This document shows positions 713 through 63,513 of a stretch of 64,000 bases of DNA, one piece after another. Below the pieces are notes generated by a model. That model ran no database searches and was not told the origin of the DNA. It saw only the letters and a program-made list of their open reading frames with translations. The stretch is from Pedobacter helvus (GTDB taxonomy: Bacteria; Bacteroidota; Bacteroidia; Sphingobacteriales; Sphingobacteriaceae), in NCBI RefSeq assembly GCF_005925325.1, contig NZ_SRMP01000002.1:1-64000 (forward strand), read 5' to 3'. The position numbers and the translations under genes are program-made. How positions within the stretch are numbered: the stretch's first letter is position 1; every line of letters starts with the position of its first letter.

Positions 713-1061
713 CACACTAGCGCAACACAAGAACGACACAAGAAAGATACTGGATTTTTATATCAGCCCTTGGTCAAATTCTAGTGATTAAAAACGACAG
801 AAACCAAATGAGAAGGAGAGAAGCGGTGTAAATTTTTTCATCCGTATATAATTTGTTTTATTGATTGTCATTTATGTTTTCAATGGTATCAATGAGCTCT
901 CCCGAATAATTTCGGGATCGGTTCACTTGTGATGAAGCTACCAGATTTATTCGTTCCACTGTGTGGTTTAAAAAAATCCATGGTGGTTCATAAGTGACAA
1001 TACAAAACAGGAAGGAGGAACACGCCAACCCCCTTCCTTGTGAGACATCATTTAACCAATA

Positions 1062-4000
1062 TTATTTCAGTATTTTTAGCACATGCTTGCCCTTGTTGCC
1101 ATTCAATTCAACGAGGTAAACACCTTTCGGGTAGTTGCTCAGATCTAATTCCATTTCACTTTGTGCGATGGCAATGTTACGTTCTTGAAACTTCTTGCCA
1201 GAGATATCCATTAATTTTAAGTTTTGATATTTTCCTGCGGTAAAGCTTAGTTTTAACCATTTGTCTGCTGGGTTTGGCCACGCTTTTATTTCTTCGCCAT
1301 TTAAAGAGAAATTAATGACATCATCACCGAGTTCGGTAGTTGTTCCATCGAGATCTCTTTGTTTTAAATGGTAGTAATTTACGCCGTTTACAGGGTTGTT
1401 ATCATAAGCGATATAGTTATTTGCATTACTGCCTTTGCTATTCTGTTTTGCTATCTCAGTATAGTTTTTACCATCCGTACTTCGATAAACGATGAAAACT
1501 TCGTTGTTAGTTTCGCTAATGGTGTTCCAATTCAATTTTACACGGTTGCTTTGCAGGCTAGCGCTAAACTTACCAAAACTAACTGGAAGTACAGACGGCA
1601 CGGTCGATTCATAAGCGCCAATATCAACGGTCATAAAAGCAATGCGAGCGTTTCCTAGTAAGTCAGCGATAATAGAAGTAGGAATGCTGCTGTTATCACC
1701 AGCATCGATAAGTGGGCTTGTGGCTTGTAAAATAATACCATCATCGGCTGTGCCCAAGAAATTGTCGGGGCCGGCTAAATTGTTAGGATTTACAAATTTC
1801 GGATCTATATTCTTATTCCCGGCGCCAGGATAAACTCCAGATGTTTGTCGGATATTGCTGTAACTAGCGGTAACACTAGAAGTATTATTCATTATCAACG
1901 ATTCATTACTATCGCTCCAAATAAGCGTGTTGATTATGGAGAGATTGGTAGAAGATCCGTTGTAGATTGCATTGGCTCCGTTAACAGAACTATTCTTGAA
2001 AAAAGTGGCATTGATAATTCTGGGTGTAGTACTAGAGTTGTAAATAGCACCGCCAACATTTTGGGTAGCGTTGTTTACAAAAACACTATTGACAACTTTT
2101 GGCGAACCACTCGTTTCGGTAGCTAATGCCCCACCGCCAGTGCTGTTGATACCTTCAGTTCTATTATTTGAAAAGACACAACGGTCTATTAGCGGCGAAG
2201 AATTGATGATATGCAGGGCGCCACCAAAGCGTTTAGCCCTATTATTTCTAAAGGTTAGGTTGCGTAGCACTAGATTTTCGCCGTTACTGCAGTCTTTTAT
2301 AAAAATACCACCACCATGGCCATCATGTACAACTGTGTTATTAATGGTTCTGTTTCCGTCGCCATTGGCATCGCCCGCCGTGATGTCAAAGCCATCTACG
2401 ATCAAGCTATCTGTTTGCGCTGTTACACCTACTATCATCATTACATGATAACTTTTATCAAAGCTTCCGTTAATTGAGCTAAAGTTTCCACTCAAAATCG
2501 ATGGGTTAGTTTTTATATGCCTTTTGTTGGTACTAGGGTCATAGCCACCTTCTATTTTCAGGTTTGCTCTTTTAATGATTAAAGATTGATCTTTGCTACC
2601 TTCGCCATGAGTACTGAGGTAGTTTCCTTTAGCAACTTTAATTGTGGTAAATGTATTGCAGTTATCGGCCACTGCAAGCGCTTCATGAAGTGTTTTTAAT
2701 GCCGTTTGCCAACTGCGGCCGTTCCCGCTAGATGTTACGTTTGCATCTACGTAAATTACTTCCGGACAAGCACTACCCTCATAGGGCCCAACGTCTAAAG
2801 CGCCGTCTTGGTAGCGTGGCGCTCCAGTAATGTCTTTAGAATTTTGTGCTAAGTTCAAAGCCGCGTTATTTGCTATATAACCAGTGTTAATAGCGGGTGA
2901 ACCCACTATTGGACGTAATCCGTCATCTGGTGTTCCAAATATACCATCAGGCCCTGCAGGATCATTAATGTTGCGCAACATAGGGTCTACATCTCTAATG
3001 TTTGTCCCAGAATAGCCGCCTTGTACAATGCTATGTCTTATTACTGCTGCAGTGCCAATGTTATGATTTGCTGTAATTATGCTGTTTGAAATCGATATAT
3101 CAGAAGAGTTAAAATCCGCATTGTTGTTATAGGAAATGTTGTTTACAAACAAACTGCCTTCAATAACTACTTTGGCGTCACCAGTTAACATCGTCATATT
3201 CGATCTAGTGCCGTGAAAAATCGAATTATCGATGTTAATAGTTATATTTTTAGTGTCTCCTATAGTGCCTGGCGTGCTACCATTTGATGCACCTATTGCT
3301 CCGCCTAGAGATGCTCCATTATTACTAAAAATAGAACGGCTTATTTTTAAAATACCAGATGCATTGATGCTTATGGCTCCGCCCGATTGTAGAAGCGCTT
3401 GAATGCCTCCAACAATAGGATTGCCATAGTCGGTTTCGTCGGAAGTATAATTTCCTATAAATTGACTATTCTCTATCGAAACATTACTTGCATCAATGCC
3501 TATTGCGGCACCTCTATAAGAAGTATTATCCGTAAACTTGCATCTACTTATTTTTAAATCATTTAATACCTGGGTGATATAGATTGCTCCGCCTCCCCTA
3601 AGAGGTATTTCTTTGCCGTTAATAAAATAGCTACTGGCACGGGTGTAATCAGTTTCACCTCCGCGAGTAAGCGTCAAGCCTTCTATTTCTATCGGCGCAG
3701 CAGATCCATTAATGGACATTATCGTTATCAAATGCGGTGTGCTTCGTGTATGCCAGTCCGCACTTATCAATGTAGGGTTGGCTAAAATATCTCGCAGATT
3801 ATTCTGCGCATTGTATCCGCCAAGTAATTTAATTCCTCCTCTAGCCAATACATAGCCATAACGGTTATCGTAATGCTTAGTAGGTGTATAAGTACCTTTG
3901 GCCAACCTAATTTCATAGTTTATTCCGGCATTTGCTGACTGGTGTACCTTATCTAGGGCACTTTGCAAGTCGTTATAAGCATTCGTCCAACTATTTCCAC

Positions 4001-4103
4001 TGTTGTTTCCAGTGGCAGCACTATCAACATAAATTACAGTTTGTGCCGAAACCATCGAAGCACAAATCGCGAAAACAAAAAGGAAAAGTAATTTTATTCT
4101 CAT
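1062..4103 (-). CDS. Secreted two-domain parallel beta-helix protein with T9SS sorting tail
   Basis: 1013 residues. Residues 1-20 form a signal peptide ending in SAQ. Two homologous halves follow. Each opens with VIYVD-(S/A)-A/N...W-x-x-A...L-x-x-AL (about 23 and 448), continues as a right-handed beta-helix of I-x-N-S/C-x-F-x-N-N rungs, and closes with DP-x-(F/L)...GPD-x-(I/F)-(F/L)GT-x-DDG...SP-(A/L)I-(N/D)-(T/A)G followed by DVGPYE or DIGAYE. Residues about 885-930 look like an Ig/FnIII-type spacer. The last 75 residues contain KAWPNPADKWLKL and end GKHVLKILK, a type A sorting domain for the type IX secretion system. The family is secreted or attached at the cell surface. The substrate is unknown; polysaccharide binding or lyase-like activity is possible, but no catalytic set was recognised. 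Confidence 0.85.
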   Translation of the reverse strand: MRIKLLFLFVFAICASMVSAQTVIYVDSAATGNNSGNSWTNAYNDLQSALDKVHQSANAGINYEIRLAKGTYTPTKHYDNRYGYVLARGGIKLLGGYNAQNNLRDILANPTLISADWHTRSTPHLITIMSINGSAAPIEIEGLTLTRGGETDYTRASSYFINGKEIPLRGGGAIYITQVLNDLKISRCKFTDNTSYRGAAIGIDASNVSIENSQFIGNYTSDETDYGNPIVGGIQALLQSGGAISINASGILKISRSIFSNNGASLGGAIGASNGSTPGTIGDTKNITINIDNSIFHGTRSNMTMLTGDAKVVIEGSLFVNNISYNNNADFNSSDISISNSIITANHNIGTAAVIRHSIVQGGYSGTNIRDVDPMLRNINDPAGPDGIFGTPDDGLRPIVGSPAINTGYIANNAALNLAQNSKDITGAPRYQDGALDVGPYEGSACPEVIYVDANVTSSGNGRSWQTALKTLHEALAVADNCNTFTTIKVAKGNYLSTHGEGSKDQSLIIKRANLKIEGGYDPSTNKRHIKTNPSILSGNFSSINGSFDKSYHVMMIVGVTAQTDSLIVDGFDITAGDANGDGNRTINNTVVHDGHGGGIFIKDCSNGENLVLRNLTFRNNRAKRFGGALHIINSSPLIDRCVFSNNRTEGINSTGGGALATETSGSPKVVNSVFVNNATQNVGGAIYNSSTTPRIINATFFKNSSVNGANAIYNGSSTNLSIINTLIWSDSNESLIMNNTSSVTASYSNIRQTSGVYPGAGNKNIDPKFVNPNNLAGPDNFLGTADDGIILQATSPLIDAGDNSSIPTSIIADLLGNARIAFMTVDIGAYESTVPSVLPVSFGKFSASLQSNRVKLNWNTISETNNEVFIVYRSTDGKNYTEIAKQNSKGSNANNYIAYDNNPVNGVNYYHLKQRDLDGTTTELGDDVINFSLNGEEIKAWPNPADKWLKLSFTAGKYQNLKLMDISGKKFQERNIAIAQSEMELDLSNYPKGVYLVELNGNKGKHVLKILK

Positions 4104-4340
4104 TGGTATAAGTTTATCACGTCATAAATATCCTGTTGTATTTGATTAAAACAAGTATCTAAGGGCGGACAAAAAGCGGACAAATGAAAGGCGATGTTTC
4201 CTGCGTAAGCTTATTGAAGCATTGATCAGCAAATATTTCGTAAAGAGAACAGCTAATTATCGCATCAGCTAATTCAGGTATGCCTGCTAAATCTCACATC
4301 TCATATCTCAATACTCGTATCTATTTACTATTTTGCACCA
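4104..4340. promoter_or_regulatory. Divergent intergenic region between T9SS protein and holB
   Basis: A 237-bp AT-rich gap between divergent genes, so it must hold both promoters. Just before holB the sequence TTTACTATTTTGCACC resembles a Bacteroidota -7 element (TAnnTTTG) but is not an exact match. No Shine-Dalgarno sequence is seen. Confidence 0.35.
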
Positions 4341-5486
4341 ATGCAGTTTAAAGAGATTATTGGACAAGACTATGTAAAGCAACACTTATTGCAAACCGTA
4401 GCCGAGAACAGGGTGAGCCATGCGCAACTTTTTCTTTCGCCTGCCGGAAGTGGTGCGGTACCTTTGGCTATTGCCTATGCCCAATACATCAATTGCCAAG
4501 AAAGAACAGCCGAAGATAGCTGTGGCGAATGTGCTTCTTGTCGTAAATACGAACGCTTAATCCATCCCGATTTACATTTTTCTTATCCATTTTTTGCTTC
4601 CAAGGATGTGAAGATAGCCACGGATGTTTTGGAAGAATGGCGTAACATGGTATTGGAAAACCCTTATTTCGATTTGGACATTTGGCGTTCTAAGTTAAGT
4701 GCAGATAACAAACAGGCCAACATCAACATCGCTGAAGCGCATGATATCATCAAGAAACTAAGCTATAAAGCTTTTGAAGCTGATACCAAGGTGCTGATCA
4801 TGTGGTTGCCCGAATATTTGGATAGGGAAGGAAATGCCCTGCTAAAAATTATTGAGGAACCGCCTGCAAAAACGCTGTTTATCTTAATTGCGCAAAATCA
4901 GGAACAAATTTTATCTACTATTTTATCTCGTACACAGATTGTTAAAATTCCTAAGCTGGCGGATGAGGTAGTGAAACAATATTTGGTGGCTAAAGCTAAT
5001 CTTTCAGATCATCAGGCAGAAGAATATAGTTTTTTAGCCGATGGAAATTTAATAGAAGCCAATGCTTTGTTGGCCGACGAAGTAAATAACAACGCCGGCT
5101 ATTTCTCAGAATGGTTACGTATGGCCTACAGCAATAGAGTGCCAGATATGATGGCGTTTACAGAAACCGCGGCAAGTTGGGGCAGGGAAAATCAGAAGAA
5201 TTACATCAAATACGGTATCAATTTTTTACGTGAGTGTGGTTTAATTATCAGCGGTGCCGCAGCTTTGGTGAAACTGCCTCCTCAGCACTTAGAAGTGGCA
5301 AAAAAATTATCAGCTGTGCTAAATATGCCTATGATAGAGGCGCTTATTAATGAGCTGGAAAAGGCGCATTACCATATCGAACGTAATGCGAATCCGAAAA
5401 TTCTGTTTTTAGATGTATCTTTACAACTGGTAAAAATTATAAAATTTAAAACGCTCCCGAAAGGGACTCAATATATATACACGTAA
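4341..5486 (+). CDS. holB: DNA polymerase III clamp-loader subunit delta'
   Basis: 381 residues with the AAA+ clamp-loader fold: FKEIIGQDYVKQHL at the start, a degenerate P-loop SPAGSGAVPL (33-42) lacking the GKT of ATP-binding subunits, and a zinc module with Cys at 52, 61, 64 and 67. The sensor regions LLKIIEEPPAKTLFILIA and ILSRTQIVKI follow. The loss of the P-loop lysine is normal for delta', which does not hydrolyse ATP but supplies an arginine finger (the SR of SRTQ). The protein helps load the sliding clamp during replication. It ends 2 nt before ricT, so the two are very probably co-transcribed. Confidence 0.9.
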   Translation: MQFKEIIGQDYVKQHLLQTVAENRVSHAQLFLSPAGSGAVPLAIAYAQYINCQERTAEDSCGECASCRKYERLIHPDLHFSYPFFASKDVKIATDVLEEWRNMVLENPYFDLDIWRSKLSADNKQANINIAEAHDIIKKLSYKAFEADTKVLIMWLPEYLDREGNALLKIIEEPPAKTLFILIAQNQEQILSTILSRTQIVKIPKLADEVVKQYLVAKANLSDHQAEEYSFLADGNLIEANALLADEVNNNAGYFSEWLRMAYSNRVPDMMAFTETAASWGRENQKNYIKYGINFLRECGLIISGAAALVKLPPQHLEVAKKLSAVLNMPMIEALINELEKAHYHIERNANPKILFLDVSLQLVKIIKFKTLPKGTQYIYT

Positions 5487-53839: not shown

Positions 53840-54340
53840 ATGAAGGAAACCATATTAGCGTTTTTAGATAGCATCGGTATTAAATATGCTTTCTCGGCGA
53901 TGGAAAAGGAGGGTTTTCTACCTGGACTTGAACTCCGGGAAGGAGTGCTCATCATCGATCCGGAGAAGCTCAAATACGTTGGAGATATTTTACACGAAGC
54001 AGGACATTTGGCATGCATGCCACTTGCGGTAAGAGCGGGTATGACTGGTGTTTTGCCCAACAACGATATGATGCAGGGCGGCGAAATGATGGCCATGGCA
54101 TGGTCTTTTGCGGCTTGTAAACATTTGCAACTAGAGGCCACTGTGGTTTTTCATAAGGATGGCTACAAAGGCGAAGCTGCAACATTAATAGCCGCTTACG
54201 AGGCAGGCAACGGGCCCGGCATTCCCTTGTTGCAGTGGTTAGGCATGTGCTATGATCAACACACGGCGGCACAAAACGGAACACAGCCATTTCCACACAT
54301 GAAGCAATGGTTGTGCACTACCAACAAATACACGGCTTAG
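53840..54340 (+). CDS. Conserved hypothetical protein with HExxH motif
   Basis: 166 residues, no signal peptide. HEAGH (about 51-55, in DILHEAGHLACMPL) is a zinc-metallopeptidase HExxH motif. The remainder contains MMQGGEMMAMAWSFAACKHL, with a Glu that could be the third ligand. It is 6 bp downstream of the channel gene, so in the same unit. The protein is probably a small metalloprotein; the activity is not known. Confidence 0.65.
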   Translation: MKETILAFLDSIGIKYAFSAMEKEGFLPGLELREGVLIIDPEKLKYVGDILHEAGHLACMPLAVRAGMTGVLPNNDMMQGGEMMAMAWSFAACKHLQLEATVVFHKDGYKGEAATLIAAYEAGNGPGIPLLQWLGMCYDQHTAAQNGTQPFPHMKQWLCTTNKYTA

Positions 54341-54392
54341 TGATGGTGCAATTTATTTATCAAAAAAGGAAAATTTAAATAAGCGCTTTTTA

Positions 54393-54400
54393 TATATTTG
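54393..54400 (+). promoter_or_regulatory. -7 element of the tRNA-Arg locus
   Basis: TATATTTG is an exact TAnnTTTG element 12 bp before the degenerate tRNA fragment. It is presumably the original tRNA promoter and now reads the fragment, the GIY-YIG gene and the intact tRNA. Confidence 0.6.
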
Positions 54401-54412
54401 CGCCGGTACTTT

Positions 54413-54479
54413 GGCCCTGTAGTTCAACGGATAGAATACCTGCCTGCGGTAGGCAGGGAAATTTACTAAACTTTAGATA
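54413..54479 (+). pseudogene. Degenerate 5' part of tRNA-Arg(CCU) interrupted by a palindrome
   Basis: 54413-54438 equals tRNA nucleotides 1-26 of the intact gene at 54725. 54439-54457 is an added 19-bp palindrome CCTGCCTGCGGTAGGCAGG. 54458-54479 (GAAATTTACTAAACTTTAGATA) matches the anticodon arm and variable loop with two changes (G to A in the stem, C to A in the anticodon). Homology stops at the A that begins the GIY-YIG start codon. It cannot be a functional tRNA as it lacks the T arm and 3' acceptor. Confidence 0.85.
54439..54457. repeat. 19-bp palindrome inserted in the tRNA fragment
   Basis: CCTGCC-TGCGGTA-GGCAGG lies exactly between the D-arm base 26 and the anticodon stem. It looks like a dispersed palindromic element of the kind frequent in Bacteroidota. 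Confidence 0.8.
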
Positions 54480-54718
54480 TGGATATTTTTTATATATATG
54501 CAATCAAAAGTGAAGCTGATGGAAGGATATATGTGGGTTTTTCTGCAGATGTAGAAAAGAGGTTAAAAGAGTACAATGCTGGTAAAACTAAATCTACTAA
54601 AGGTTATAAACCTTGGGTTTTAATTTACACAGAACAAGTAGCGGGTAGGATTGCCGCAAGAAATAAAGAAAAATATTACAAATCTGGGATAGGAAAAGAG
54701 TTTTTAAAATCTTTATAA
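54479..54718 (+). CDS. Minimal GIY-YIG endonuclease inserted in tRNA-Arg
   Basis: 79 residues, one domain. GIY-YIG pattern: MDIFYIYAIKS (Y5, Y7) and RIYVGFS (Y18-V19-G20), then ADVEKRLKEYN with R28, a basic loop GKTKSTKGYKPWVLIY, and the C-terminal ARNKEKYYKSGIGKEFLKSL with E64 as likely metal-binding glutamate. This is the UvrC-like, SLX1-like small family. Its ATG begins at the last base of tRNA homology, and it ends 6 bp before the intact tRNA. Placement inside a duplicated tRNA suggests a homing-type role. Confidence 0.88.
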   Translation: MDIFYIYAIKSEADGRIYVGFSADVEKRLKEYNAGKTKSTKGYKPWVLIYTEQVAGRIAARNKEKYYKSGIGKEFLKSL

Positions 54719-54724
54719 TGTTAT

Positions 54725-54796
54725 GGCCCTGTAGTTCAACGGATAGAATAGAAGTTTCCTAAACTTTAGATAGCAGTTCGATTCTGCTCGGGGCTA
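54725..54796 (+). tRNA. tRNA-Arg (anticodon CCT)
   Basis: 72 nt fold into a full cloverleaf: acceptor GGCCCTG/CGGGGCT, D arm GTTC/GAAT, anticodon stem GAAGT/ACTTT with loop TTCCTAA (anticodon CCT), variable AGAT, T arm AGCAG-TTCGATT-CTGCT, discriminator A. The CCA is not encoded. The first 48 nt also occur upstream at 54413-54479 in degenerate form. Confidence 0.95.
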
Positions 54797-54802
54797 CTTT
54801 TT

Positions 54803-54838
54803 AAAGCATCAATCAGTAAATGGTTGGTGCTTTTTGTT
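54803..54838 (+). terminator. Terminator after tRNA-Arg
   Basis: AAAGCATCAA (54803-54812) pairs with TTGGTGCTTT (54824-54833), followed by T-rich sequence. Confidence 0.7.
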
Positions 54839-54954
54839 TACTAACGAGTTTACAGTCGTAAATCTGGAGCTTTATGGTATTTTGGGTTTCACCACTTTTT
54901 AAATTTATTTGTCGTTGATTTAACAAAGACAATCTTACCTGTACCGGCATAAAA

Positions 54955-63487: not shown

Positions 63488-63513
63488 AATCCCGAACGTT
63501 TAAGTTCGGGATT
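63488..63513 (-). terminator. Terminator of the DUF4397 gene
   Basis: AATCCCGAAC (63488-63497) pairs with GTTCGGGATT (63504-63513). On the minus strand it is followed by a run of T (A at 63482-63489). Confidence 0.85.

Follow-up and report, generated by a model that had tools for sequence, protein, structure and literature searches.

A putative minimal homing-like GIY-YIG element in a tRNA-Arg gene of Pedobacter helvus, with related loci at other tRNA genes of the Bacteroidota

The tRNA-Arg(CCU) locus described here lies at positions 54393–54838 of the window, i.e., the whole 64,000-nucleotide stretch of Pedobacter helvus DNA that was analyzed, and is probably occupied by a minimal homing-like parasitic element of tRNA genes, a reading to which we assign a probability of roughly 0.7, with cleavage and homing as its inferred steps. 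In the mechanism we propose, a small nuclease would break the tRNA gene of an element-free chromosome, and repair from an element-bearing donor, aligned via the tRNA sequence on both sides of the open reading frame (ORF), would copy the ORF in and leave an intact tRNA behind. The tRNA copies, whose sequence is conserved across genera, would serve as homology arms that the element brings with it, and the cost to the host would be low.

Organization of the tRNA-Arg locus and its nuclease

Three parts lie in series between positions 54413 and 54797, all on the plus strand: a hairpin-bearing partial copy of tRNA-Arg(CCU), a 79-aa GIY-YIG ORF, and a complete tRNA-Arg. The partial copy begins with tRNA nt 1–26 (54413–54438), which share 100% identity with 54725–54750 of the intact tRNA (27 nt if the preceding base is included). 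A 19-nt hairpin insert, CCTGCCTGCGGTAGGCAGG (54439–54457), follows between tRNA nt 26 and 27 and is composed of 7-bp arms (CCTGCCT and AGGCAGG; 7 pairs) around a 5-nt loop (GCGGT), after which the copy continues with a degenerate version of nt 27–48 (54458–54479; 91% identity with 54751–54772). The ATG of the nuclease ORF (54479–54718) overlaps the final base of the partial copy, and a 6-nt spacer (54719–54724) separates the ORF stop from the complete tRNA-Arg (anticodon CCT; 54725–54797), which was identified by ARAGORN and by Rfam (RF00005; 61.4 bits, E = 6.7e-13). This tRNA was the sole Rfam match in positions 54300–54900, and the partial copy had none at E ≤ 1. A terminator stem (54803–54833, plus strand) lies 3′ of the intact tRNA, and a neighboring protein is encoded at 53840–54340.

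The original prediction, made from the letters of the window, had correctly placed the duplicated tRNA nt 1–48, the degenerate first copy, the ATG overlap, the 79-aa ORF, and the 6-nt gap. The 19-bp palindrome that it described is indeed a 19-nt hairpin between nt 26 and 27, although it is an inverted repeat with 7-bp arms and not a perfect palindrome. Similarly, the proposed element length of ∼293 bp holds, but the locus is 312 bp longer than an uninterrupted 73-nt tRNA (385 − 73), a net insertion in which the 19-nt hairpin is counted with the 293 bp. The element is bounded by direct repeats, so the window locus alone does not reveal exactly where it was inserted.

Bacteroidota promoters have the consensus TAnnTTTG, and a putative −7 promoter box, TATATTTG (54393–54400, plus strand), is present 12 nt 5′ of the partial copy. 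The same box occurs 10–13 nt 5′ of the uninterrupted tRNA-Arg in 7 of 7 aligned relatives; it is likely the −7 box of the native tRNA-Arg gene, now located 5′ of the partial copy, the ORF, and the intact tRNA. Given this position of the native box, and given that no terminator-like site was found on the plus strand between it and the complete tRNA, the ORF and the intact tRNA are likely co-transcribed from the native tRNA promoter.

Proteins of the GIY-YIG superfamily have a conserved Tyr and Tyr alongside an Arg and a Glu. The window ORF scores 53.2 bits (E = 3.6e-14) against the GIY-YIG family PF01541, for which the gathering cut-off is 22.6, and it retains the conserved Tyr, Tyr, Arg, and Glu residues; no Pfam domain other than GIY-YIG was found in the protein. 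Across 16 aligned proteins, Y7, Y18, G20, R28, and E64 are invariant, and the Arg and Glu of the domain are catalytic according to one account (PMC2988022). The dN/dS of the window ORF is 0.04 against L005 and 0.12 against L006, in both cases with synonymous changes close to saturation, and the comparison with L007 is saturated; nine pairs gave values of 0.04–0.15, while a tenth was saturated. By this measure the nuclease ORF is under purifying selection. Residue 32 (54572–54580) is Tyr in the window protein and His in the other tRNA-Arg-linked proteins compared, with the exception of the truncated L067 (Tyr), and on account of this difference the window copy may be impaired or less active. 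Homologues are recorded in public databases under generic names such as "GIY-YIG nuclease family protein," "putative endonuclease," and similar.

Several other identities for the locus were considered and rejected. A group I intron does not fit, as the tRNA beside the ORF is unsplit and Rfam (E ≤ 1) found only the tRNA, and no intron core, in 54300–54900. An integrase-type tRNA-integrating element was set aside as well, since the GIY-YIG ORF is the only ORF of at least 60 aa between the tRNA copies and no recombinase is present. As for a phage or plasmid origin, a plasmid search gave no match, no relative was found among viral contigs, the window protein matched no PHROG family at E ≤ 0.001, and the phage matches were limited to three weak ones (34–35% identity) in unannotated records.

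Association with tRNA genes, mirror arrangements, and hairpins

The window's genome contains six homologue matches, at least four of which are tRNA-linked: Arg (window), Met (L002), Leu (L003), and Val (L004). For the genus (Pedobacter), a set was assembled from the matches listed in genus genomes and 35 loci of public genome contigs. The 158 tblastn rows, less 7 for loci fetched twice (L034, L035, and L020) and 12 fragments shorter than 50 aa, comprise 139 ORFs in 115 loci; the fragment-only loci L076, L088, and L097, all beside a tRNA, are left out of the 139. Counts refer to ORFs, with arrays counted repeatedly (L070, eight times). An ORF was placed in class A if a tRNA lay within 150 nt downstream and in class B if one lay within 3000 nt upstream, and the alignment score required of a second copy was 30, with isotypes controlled for in the phylum sample but not in the genus set. 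Settings made by hand in the genus count were the tRNA of L022, taken as Leu, and the Ile, Gly, and Cys calls, which were left out except for Cys in L068.

By these rules, a same-strand tRNA accompanies 123 of the 139 ORFs, and at 110 the ORF is flanked on its other side by a further copy of that tRNA, partial or degenerate (by locus, a tRNA at 104 of 115 and a second copy at 91). The tRNA is located within 400 nt of 104 of the 123 ORFs, and the remaining 19 are mostly later array members. The 16 ORFs without a tRNA by rule include array members (L031, L042, and L062) and pieces adjoining degenerate copies (L072 and L077); no tRNA was found in the fetched stretch of L024, L064, L065, L066, L074, L087, L108, L113, and L119.

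The association extends beyond the genus. In the phylum (Bacteroidota), matches at E ≤ 1e-8 were obtained in 188 of the 296 genomes sampled, a single genome having as many as 18; the 188 include genomes with weak matches only (e.g., the 40 chosen for the weak set). A strong set of 68 was made up of the 30 best loci and 40 picked among the top matches listed, minus two of the genus, and has some genomes present twice; a weak set comprised 30 loci from 40 genomes chosen for a weak best match. Among the strong hits, 64 of 68 have a tRNA, within 400 nt in 63 cases and between two ORFs in L259, while no tRNA was called in the fetched stretch of the other four (L262, L284, L288, and L297). Only 2 of the 30 weak hits have a same-strand tRNA, and one of these is an ORF with stops. 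Unlike the window family, these mostly unlinked weak hits look like ordinary, putative UPF0213/YhbQ-type proteins, and they provide a natural control within the same fold. The second copy is closer to its own tRNA than to every pooled tRNA of other isotypes in 46 of 63 cases (and not so in 17), and the nearest tRNAs in the phylum sample include Arg, Asn, Val, Ala, Ser, Asp, Pro, Cys, Met, Leu, and Gly. The outcome that had been named as counting against the prediction, homologues without tRNA duplications, was thus reversed, with a second copy at 110 of 139 ORFs in the genus set and tRNA linkage in 64 of 68 strong phylum hits.

The same arrangement was also observed at tRNA-Asn and tRNA-Cys in metagenome-assembled genomes (MAGs) titled Uhrbacteria, Roizmanbacteria, "bacterium," and Nomurabacteria (L053, L060, L061, and L068), which carry CCTGCC or other hairpins.

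Two mirror forms were distinguished. In class A (47 ORFs), the order is that of the window, with a partial 5′ copy followed by the ORF and the intact tRNA, whereas class B (76 of 123 ORFs) has the intact tRNA first, then the ORF, and then a 5′-damaged copy. Both forms are found among the Arg-linked proteins, and for this reason they are taken as alternative arrangements of one kind of element. The proposal that the element rebuilds the 5′ half of the tRNA consequently describes class A (47 of 123) but not the larger mirror class (76 of 123). Entry was proposed at the variable-loop/T-arm border, and the window copy ends at nt 48; the junction is nonetheless not fixed at nt 47/48. A copy was detected for 45 class A ORFs, and its end ranges from tRNA nt 21 to 71 and reaches 77 in L104, which has an almost complete second copy. 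The ORF stop is a TAG at nt 8–10 of the intact tRNA in 19 of 47 class A ORFs. Of the 65 class B ORFs for which a copy was detected, 49 extend into the damaged tRNA sequence, and the annotated protein tails (in L071, L085, L118, and other class B loci) may therefore be translated tRNA. The class B terminator is repeated at the loci inspected, L002 and L004.

Hairpins recur in the spare copies, occurring in 76 of 110 second copies vs. 30 of 643 random 100-nt windows under the rule used for a recount. Complete tRNAs match the same rule in 32 of 83 cases, all but one via apparent natural arms (under another rule, a first palindrome count had matches in 17 of 61 such tRNAs and in 38 of 394 windows taken at random), and the case for the hairpin accordingly draws on its sequence type and position in addition to the count. 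The insert is mostly of the CCTGCC type at class A Arg and Asn loci, and in class B, where it is of the TCCCGA type and its relatives, it is located mostly within or close to the anticodon arm. The Ser loci have small double hairpins in the D-loop (L014 and L016), where the rule scores 0 of 11. At the tRNA-Arg locus, the CCTGCCTGCGGTAGGCAGG hairpin is missing in all seven aligned relatives. The hairpin most likely inactivates the redundant copy, either as an RNA or as a nuclease target.

Hairpins of the form TCCCGA-N-TCGGGA were observed at 71 places in the genome (control, 1), e.g., at window positions 900–917 and 63490–63511, and represent a dispersed palindromic repeat family. Of the TCCCGA places listed, only G000:C1:490504 falls inside one of the four elements of the window's genome. 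The idea of a hairpin private to the element was not upheld in that form, given these 71 places, though the 19-nt CCTGCC pattern has only 2 sites genome-wide in the 19-nt form searched, as distinct from the 20-nt variant of other genomes. Given the dispersal of the TCCCGA hairpins through the genome, the hairpins in the spare copies seem to have been drawn from a general repeat family.

These palindromes bear on a different and unlikely account of the locus, in which a structure-directed, SLX1/UPF0213-like nuclease acts on hairpin or cruciform DNA, with tRNA genes and C-rich palindromes as its substrates and with arrays and duplications resulting from break repair. Such a nuclease is consistent with the 76 of 110 second copies that carry palindromes (vs. 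30 of 643 random windows) and with the best PDB sequence matches of the window protein, which are UPF0213 proteins at E = 1.8e-4 (I-TevI and SLX1 follow at 0.47), and it would account for the unaltered sequence of the intact tRNA. The hairpin rule is, however, also satisfied by 32 of 83 complete tRNAs; palindromes alone do not accompany these genes, as the TCCCGA type is widespread away from them; and the protein lineages are tRNA-specific, which would be needless for a nuclease that recognizes structure alone.

Empty sites, protein lineages, and patchy distribution

The tRNA-Arg was searched in 145 genomes of the genus and matched in 142. As had been suggested, the locus was compared with relatives in which tRNA-Arg(CCU) is uninterrupted: 12 of the 29 other tRNA-Arg loci fetched combine a 73-nt tRNA-Arg free of interruption with a match to the same mscS-like gene ∼40–590 nt upstream of it. 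Promoter box and tRNA are common to 7 of 7 aligned uninterrupted relatives, and the terminator stem to 5 of 7 (L122, L130, L141, L143, and L144; it differs in L124 and L146). From this comparison of sequences, the window locus is an insertion into a tRNA-Arg gene that left an intact tRNA, as originally proposed. Class B loci have comparable empty sites: a single uninterrupted tRNA-Met with conserved upstream sequence is present in G140, G138, G144, and G101 at the site that is occupied in the window's genome and in G123 (there was no match at this site in G049). An occupied site with empty counterparts among relatives, a hallmark by which free-standing homing endonuclease elements are recognized, is thus found at both the Arg and the Met loci. 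The intact tRNA of class B retains the 5′ flank and the terminator. The two tRNA-Met copies in the window's genome have the same terminator stem, and the tRNA is too conserved to reveal which end is that of the donor and which is native.

Classical homing is defined in part by an insertion that destroys the target site. G123, G049, and G101, in which the gene is uninterrupted, have a tRNA-Arg with 100% identity to the intact one of the window, and immunity through site destruction is therefore not apparent within the tRNA body. Self-immunity of this kind is not evident from the sequences compared, and the flanks may matter.

To relate protein lineage to tRNA identity, a tree was built from 124 proteins cut to 78 residues, a length that excludes almost all tRNA-derived tail sequence; labels were set by hand for L031, L042, L062, L072, L077, and L114. 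The tRNA identity changes 15 times on this tree, vs. a mean of 79.0 in shuffled labels, and a value as low was reached in 0 of 200 shuffles. The Val, Leu(UAA), Ser, Met, and Asp proteins each fall on one side of a branch, while Arg(CCU) requires 5 changes and Asn 4; 64 of the 121 forks in the tree are open. On this tree, each protein lineage appears to keep mostly to one tRNA; descent at a locus could explain some of the clustering.

The element is distributed unevenly among close relatives. Only 53 of the 145 genus genomes have a match at E ≤ 1e-3, with all paralogues counted. Within the 16 genomes chosen for a comparison of metG, the four nearest to the window's genome (G140 and G123, 97%; G138 and G049, 94%) are all empty at the tRNA-Arg, and the closest nuclease relative among the genus genomes is in G131 (86% element identity), the genome that by metG is farthest removed (81%) among the 16. 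The other carriers compared have element identities of 80% (G019), 76% (G056), and 64% (G124), with metG identities of 86, 87, and 86%, respectively. With empty sites in the nearest metG relatives and the closest nuclease in the most distant one, the element was not simply inherited with the genome; the identities of element and host gene conflict, as expected for spread beyond descent, in a comparison of four carriers and one host gene. The distribution is, by these sequence identities, patchy and incongruent with metG.

About as unlikely as the structure-directed nuclease is a non-mobile, old gene that has been inherited vertically beside tRNAs and may serve the host in tRNA processing or in the upkeep of tRNA genes, the duplications being products of ordinary unequal crossing-over. 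Purifying selection, the pairing of proteins with tRNAs, and the tandem arrays are all compatible with this account, and exact loss via recombination between the tRNA copies could also create empty sites. Against it, the relatives closest by metG, among the 16 compared, have tRNA loci free of interruption; element and metG identities conflict; matches are restricted to 53 of 145 genus genomes (E ≤ 1e-3); and contigs bearing the names of other phyla (several are MAGs) show the arrangement too.

A nuclease that cleaves RNA, either the tRNA or its precursor, with the degenerate copy as a decoy or antidote in a toxin–antitoxin-like pair, is very improbable. Each protein lineage is paired with a tRNA with which it is probably co-transcribed, and the degenerate copies retain tRNA-like parts; but these copies often have no counterpart to one tRNA end, the GIY-YIG superfamily is described as DNA-nicking or DNA-cleaving in one source (PMC2988022), and the empty-site insertion and the arrays would be left without explanation. 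Chance proximity of a nuclease gene and an unrelated tandem duplication of a tRNA is refuted by the phylum counts, i.e., a tRNA at 64 of 68 strong hits vs. 2 of 30 weak hits, and an own-isotype second copy in 46 of 63.

The homing-like reading could be extended, tentatively, from the window locus to a phylum-wide set of mobile elements. Many lineages of ∼80–100-aa nucleases would each be dedicated to one tRNA isoacceptor, and the tRNA would provide both the target and the homology arms for crossing between species, with an intact tRNA left at low cost to the host. The hairpin-bearing spare copy would then be a working part, involved in immunity or targeting, and not debris. This wider proposal is, in our judgment, somewhat doubtful.

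Known systems and tandem arrays

The closest architectural parallel is found in fungal mitochondria, where mobile ORFs (mORFs) carry a duplicate 3′ end of the host gene in Allomyces (atp6) and Glomus (atp6, atp9, cox2, and nad3), with a GIY-YIG endonuclease in one of the four Glomus cases and with mobility via the endonuclease stated as biochemically shown (PMC3630166). As described there, mORFs and the window element both combine an endonuclease ORF with a partial duplicate of a host gene that is kept whole, so that the mORF arrangement is now found for tRNA genes, an architectural likeness that does not imply kinship. The mORFs share the class B topology, in which the native end is left downstream, and, as in the window family, their presence varies between close relatives. 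They are located in mitochondrial protein genes, whereas the window family occupies bacterial tRNA genes with ORFs of ∼80–100 aa and additionally has the mirror class A, hairpins in the spare copy, and tandem arrays, its mobility being predicted from sequence. With an analogous strategy already known from mitochondria, we class the element as homing-like and not as a wholly new kind.

A second parallel is SegB, a free-standing GIY-YIG homing endonuclease of T-even phages whose gene is located beside tRNA genes (PMC13096335, PMC2988022). SegB drives tandem tRNA-segB amplification, which its authors attribute to cutting followed by recombination of the tRNA 5′ region with the segB 3′ region (PMC13096335). 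The GIY-YIG gene near tRNAs and the tandem amplification are held in common with the window family; SegB, as described there, is phage-borne and found within 1 kb of tRNAs of a wide range of isotypes, whereas the window family is chromosomal and its lineages track the tRNA. A duplicated partial tRNA, present in the window family, is not mentioned in the portions of the SegB descriptions examined (PMC13096335, PMC2988022). The database searches, as opposed to a direct SegB alignment, gave no indication of kinship with the phage protein (no PHROG family at E ≤ 0.001 and three weak phage hits). The small UPF0213 proteins (1zg2 and 1ywl), which are the best PDB matches of the window protein, belong to the same fold family and are similar in size.

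Integrative elements insert in tRNA genes, restore the tRNA 3′ end, and use integrase-based attachment sites. The window element resembles them in its insertion into a tRNA gene that is restored, and differs in having no integrase ORF and in that either tRNA end may be duplicated. In the literature searched, which covered few subscription journals and no bioRxiv preprints, no published description of the GIY-YIG/partial-tRNA arrangement was found, and we know of no earlier example of a family that specializes in the tRNA genes of bacterial chromosomes. If the homing-like reading is correct, a large family of selfish genes, recorded only under generic names, resides in the tRNA genes of the Bacteroidota, and its members would be among the smallest homing-like units. 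They would extend the fungal mORF strategy of bringing a copy of the displaced gene end to bacterial chromosomes and to RNA genes, and would illustrate how an element can inhabit a tRNA gene. A natural series of small nucleases, each with a different tRNA, would also make the specificity of a bare GIY-YIG domain directly testable.

Tandem arrays, which in G122 and L072 recall those of SegB, may result from continued cutting or from slippage between repeats. In L070 (G122; 2189–5247), eight nearly identical GIY-YIG ORFs are arranged in tandem, ∼398 bp apart, behind one intact tRNA-Leu, and hairpin-bearing partial tRNA-Leu copies lie between the ORFs in the part of the array that was read. In L072 (G021; 22–1472), approximately twelve damaged tRNA-Val-like copies, mostly 122 bp apart, are located 5′ of a GIY-YIG ORF, and no further GIY-YIG match was found among them. 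Damaged tRNA copies can be called as extra tRNAs, and tRNA annotation may be inflated where they occur: in L077, ARAGORN calls of tRNA-Ile(TAT) at 1384–1463 and 1825–1904 fall in apparent damaged tRNA-Val copies, in which a hairpin replaces the anticodon arm.
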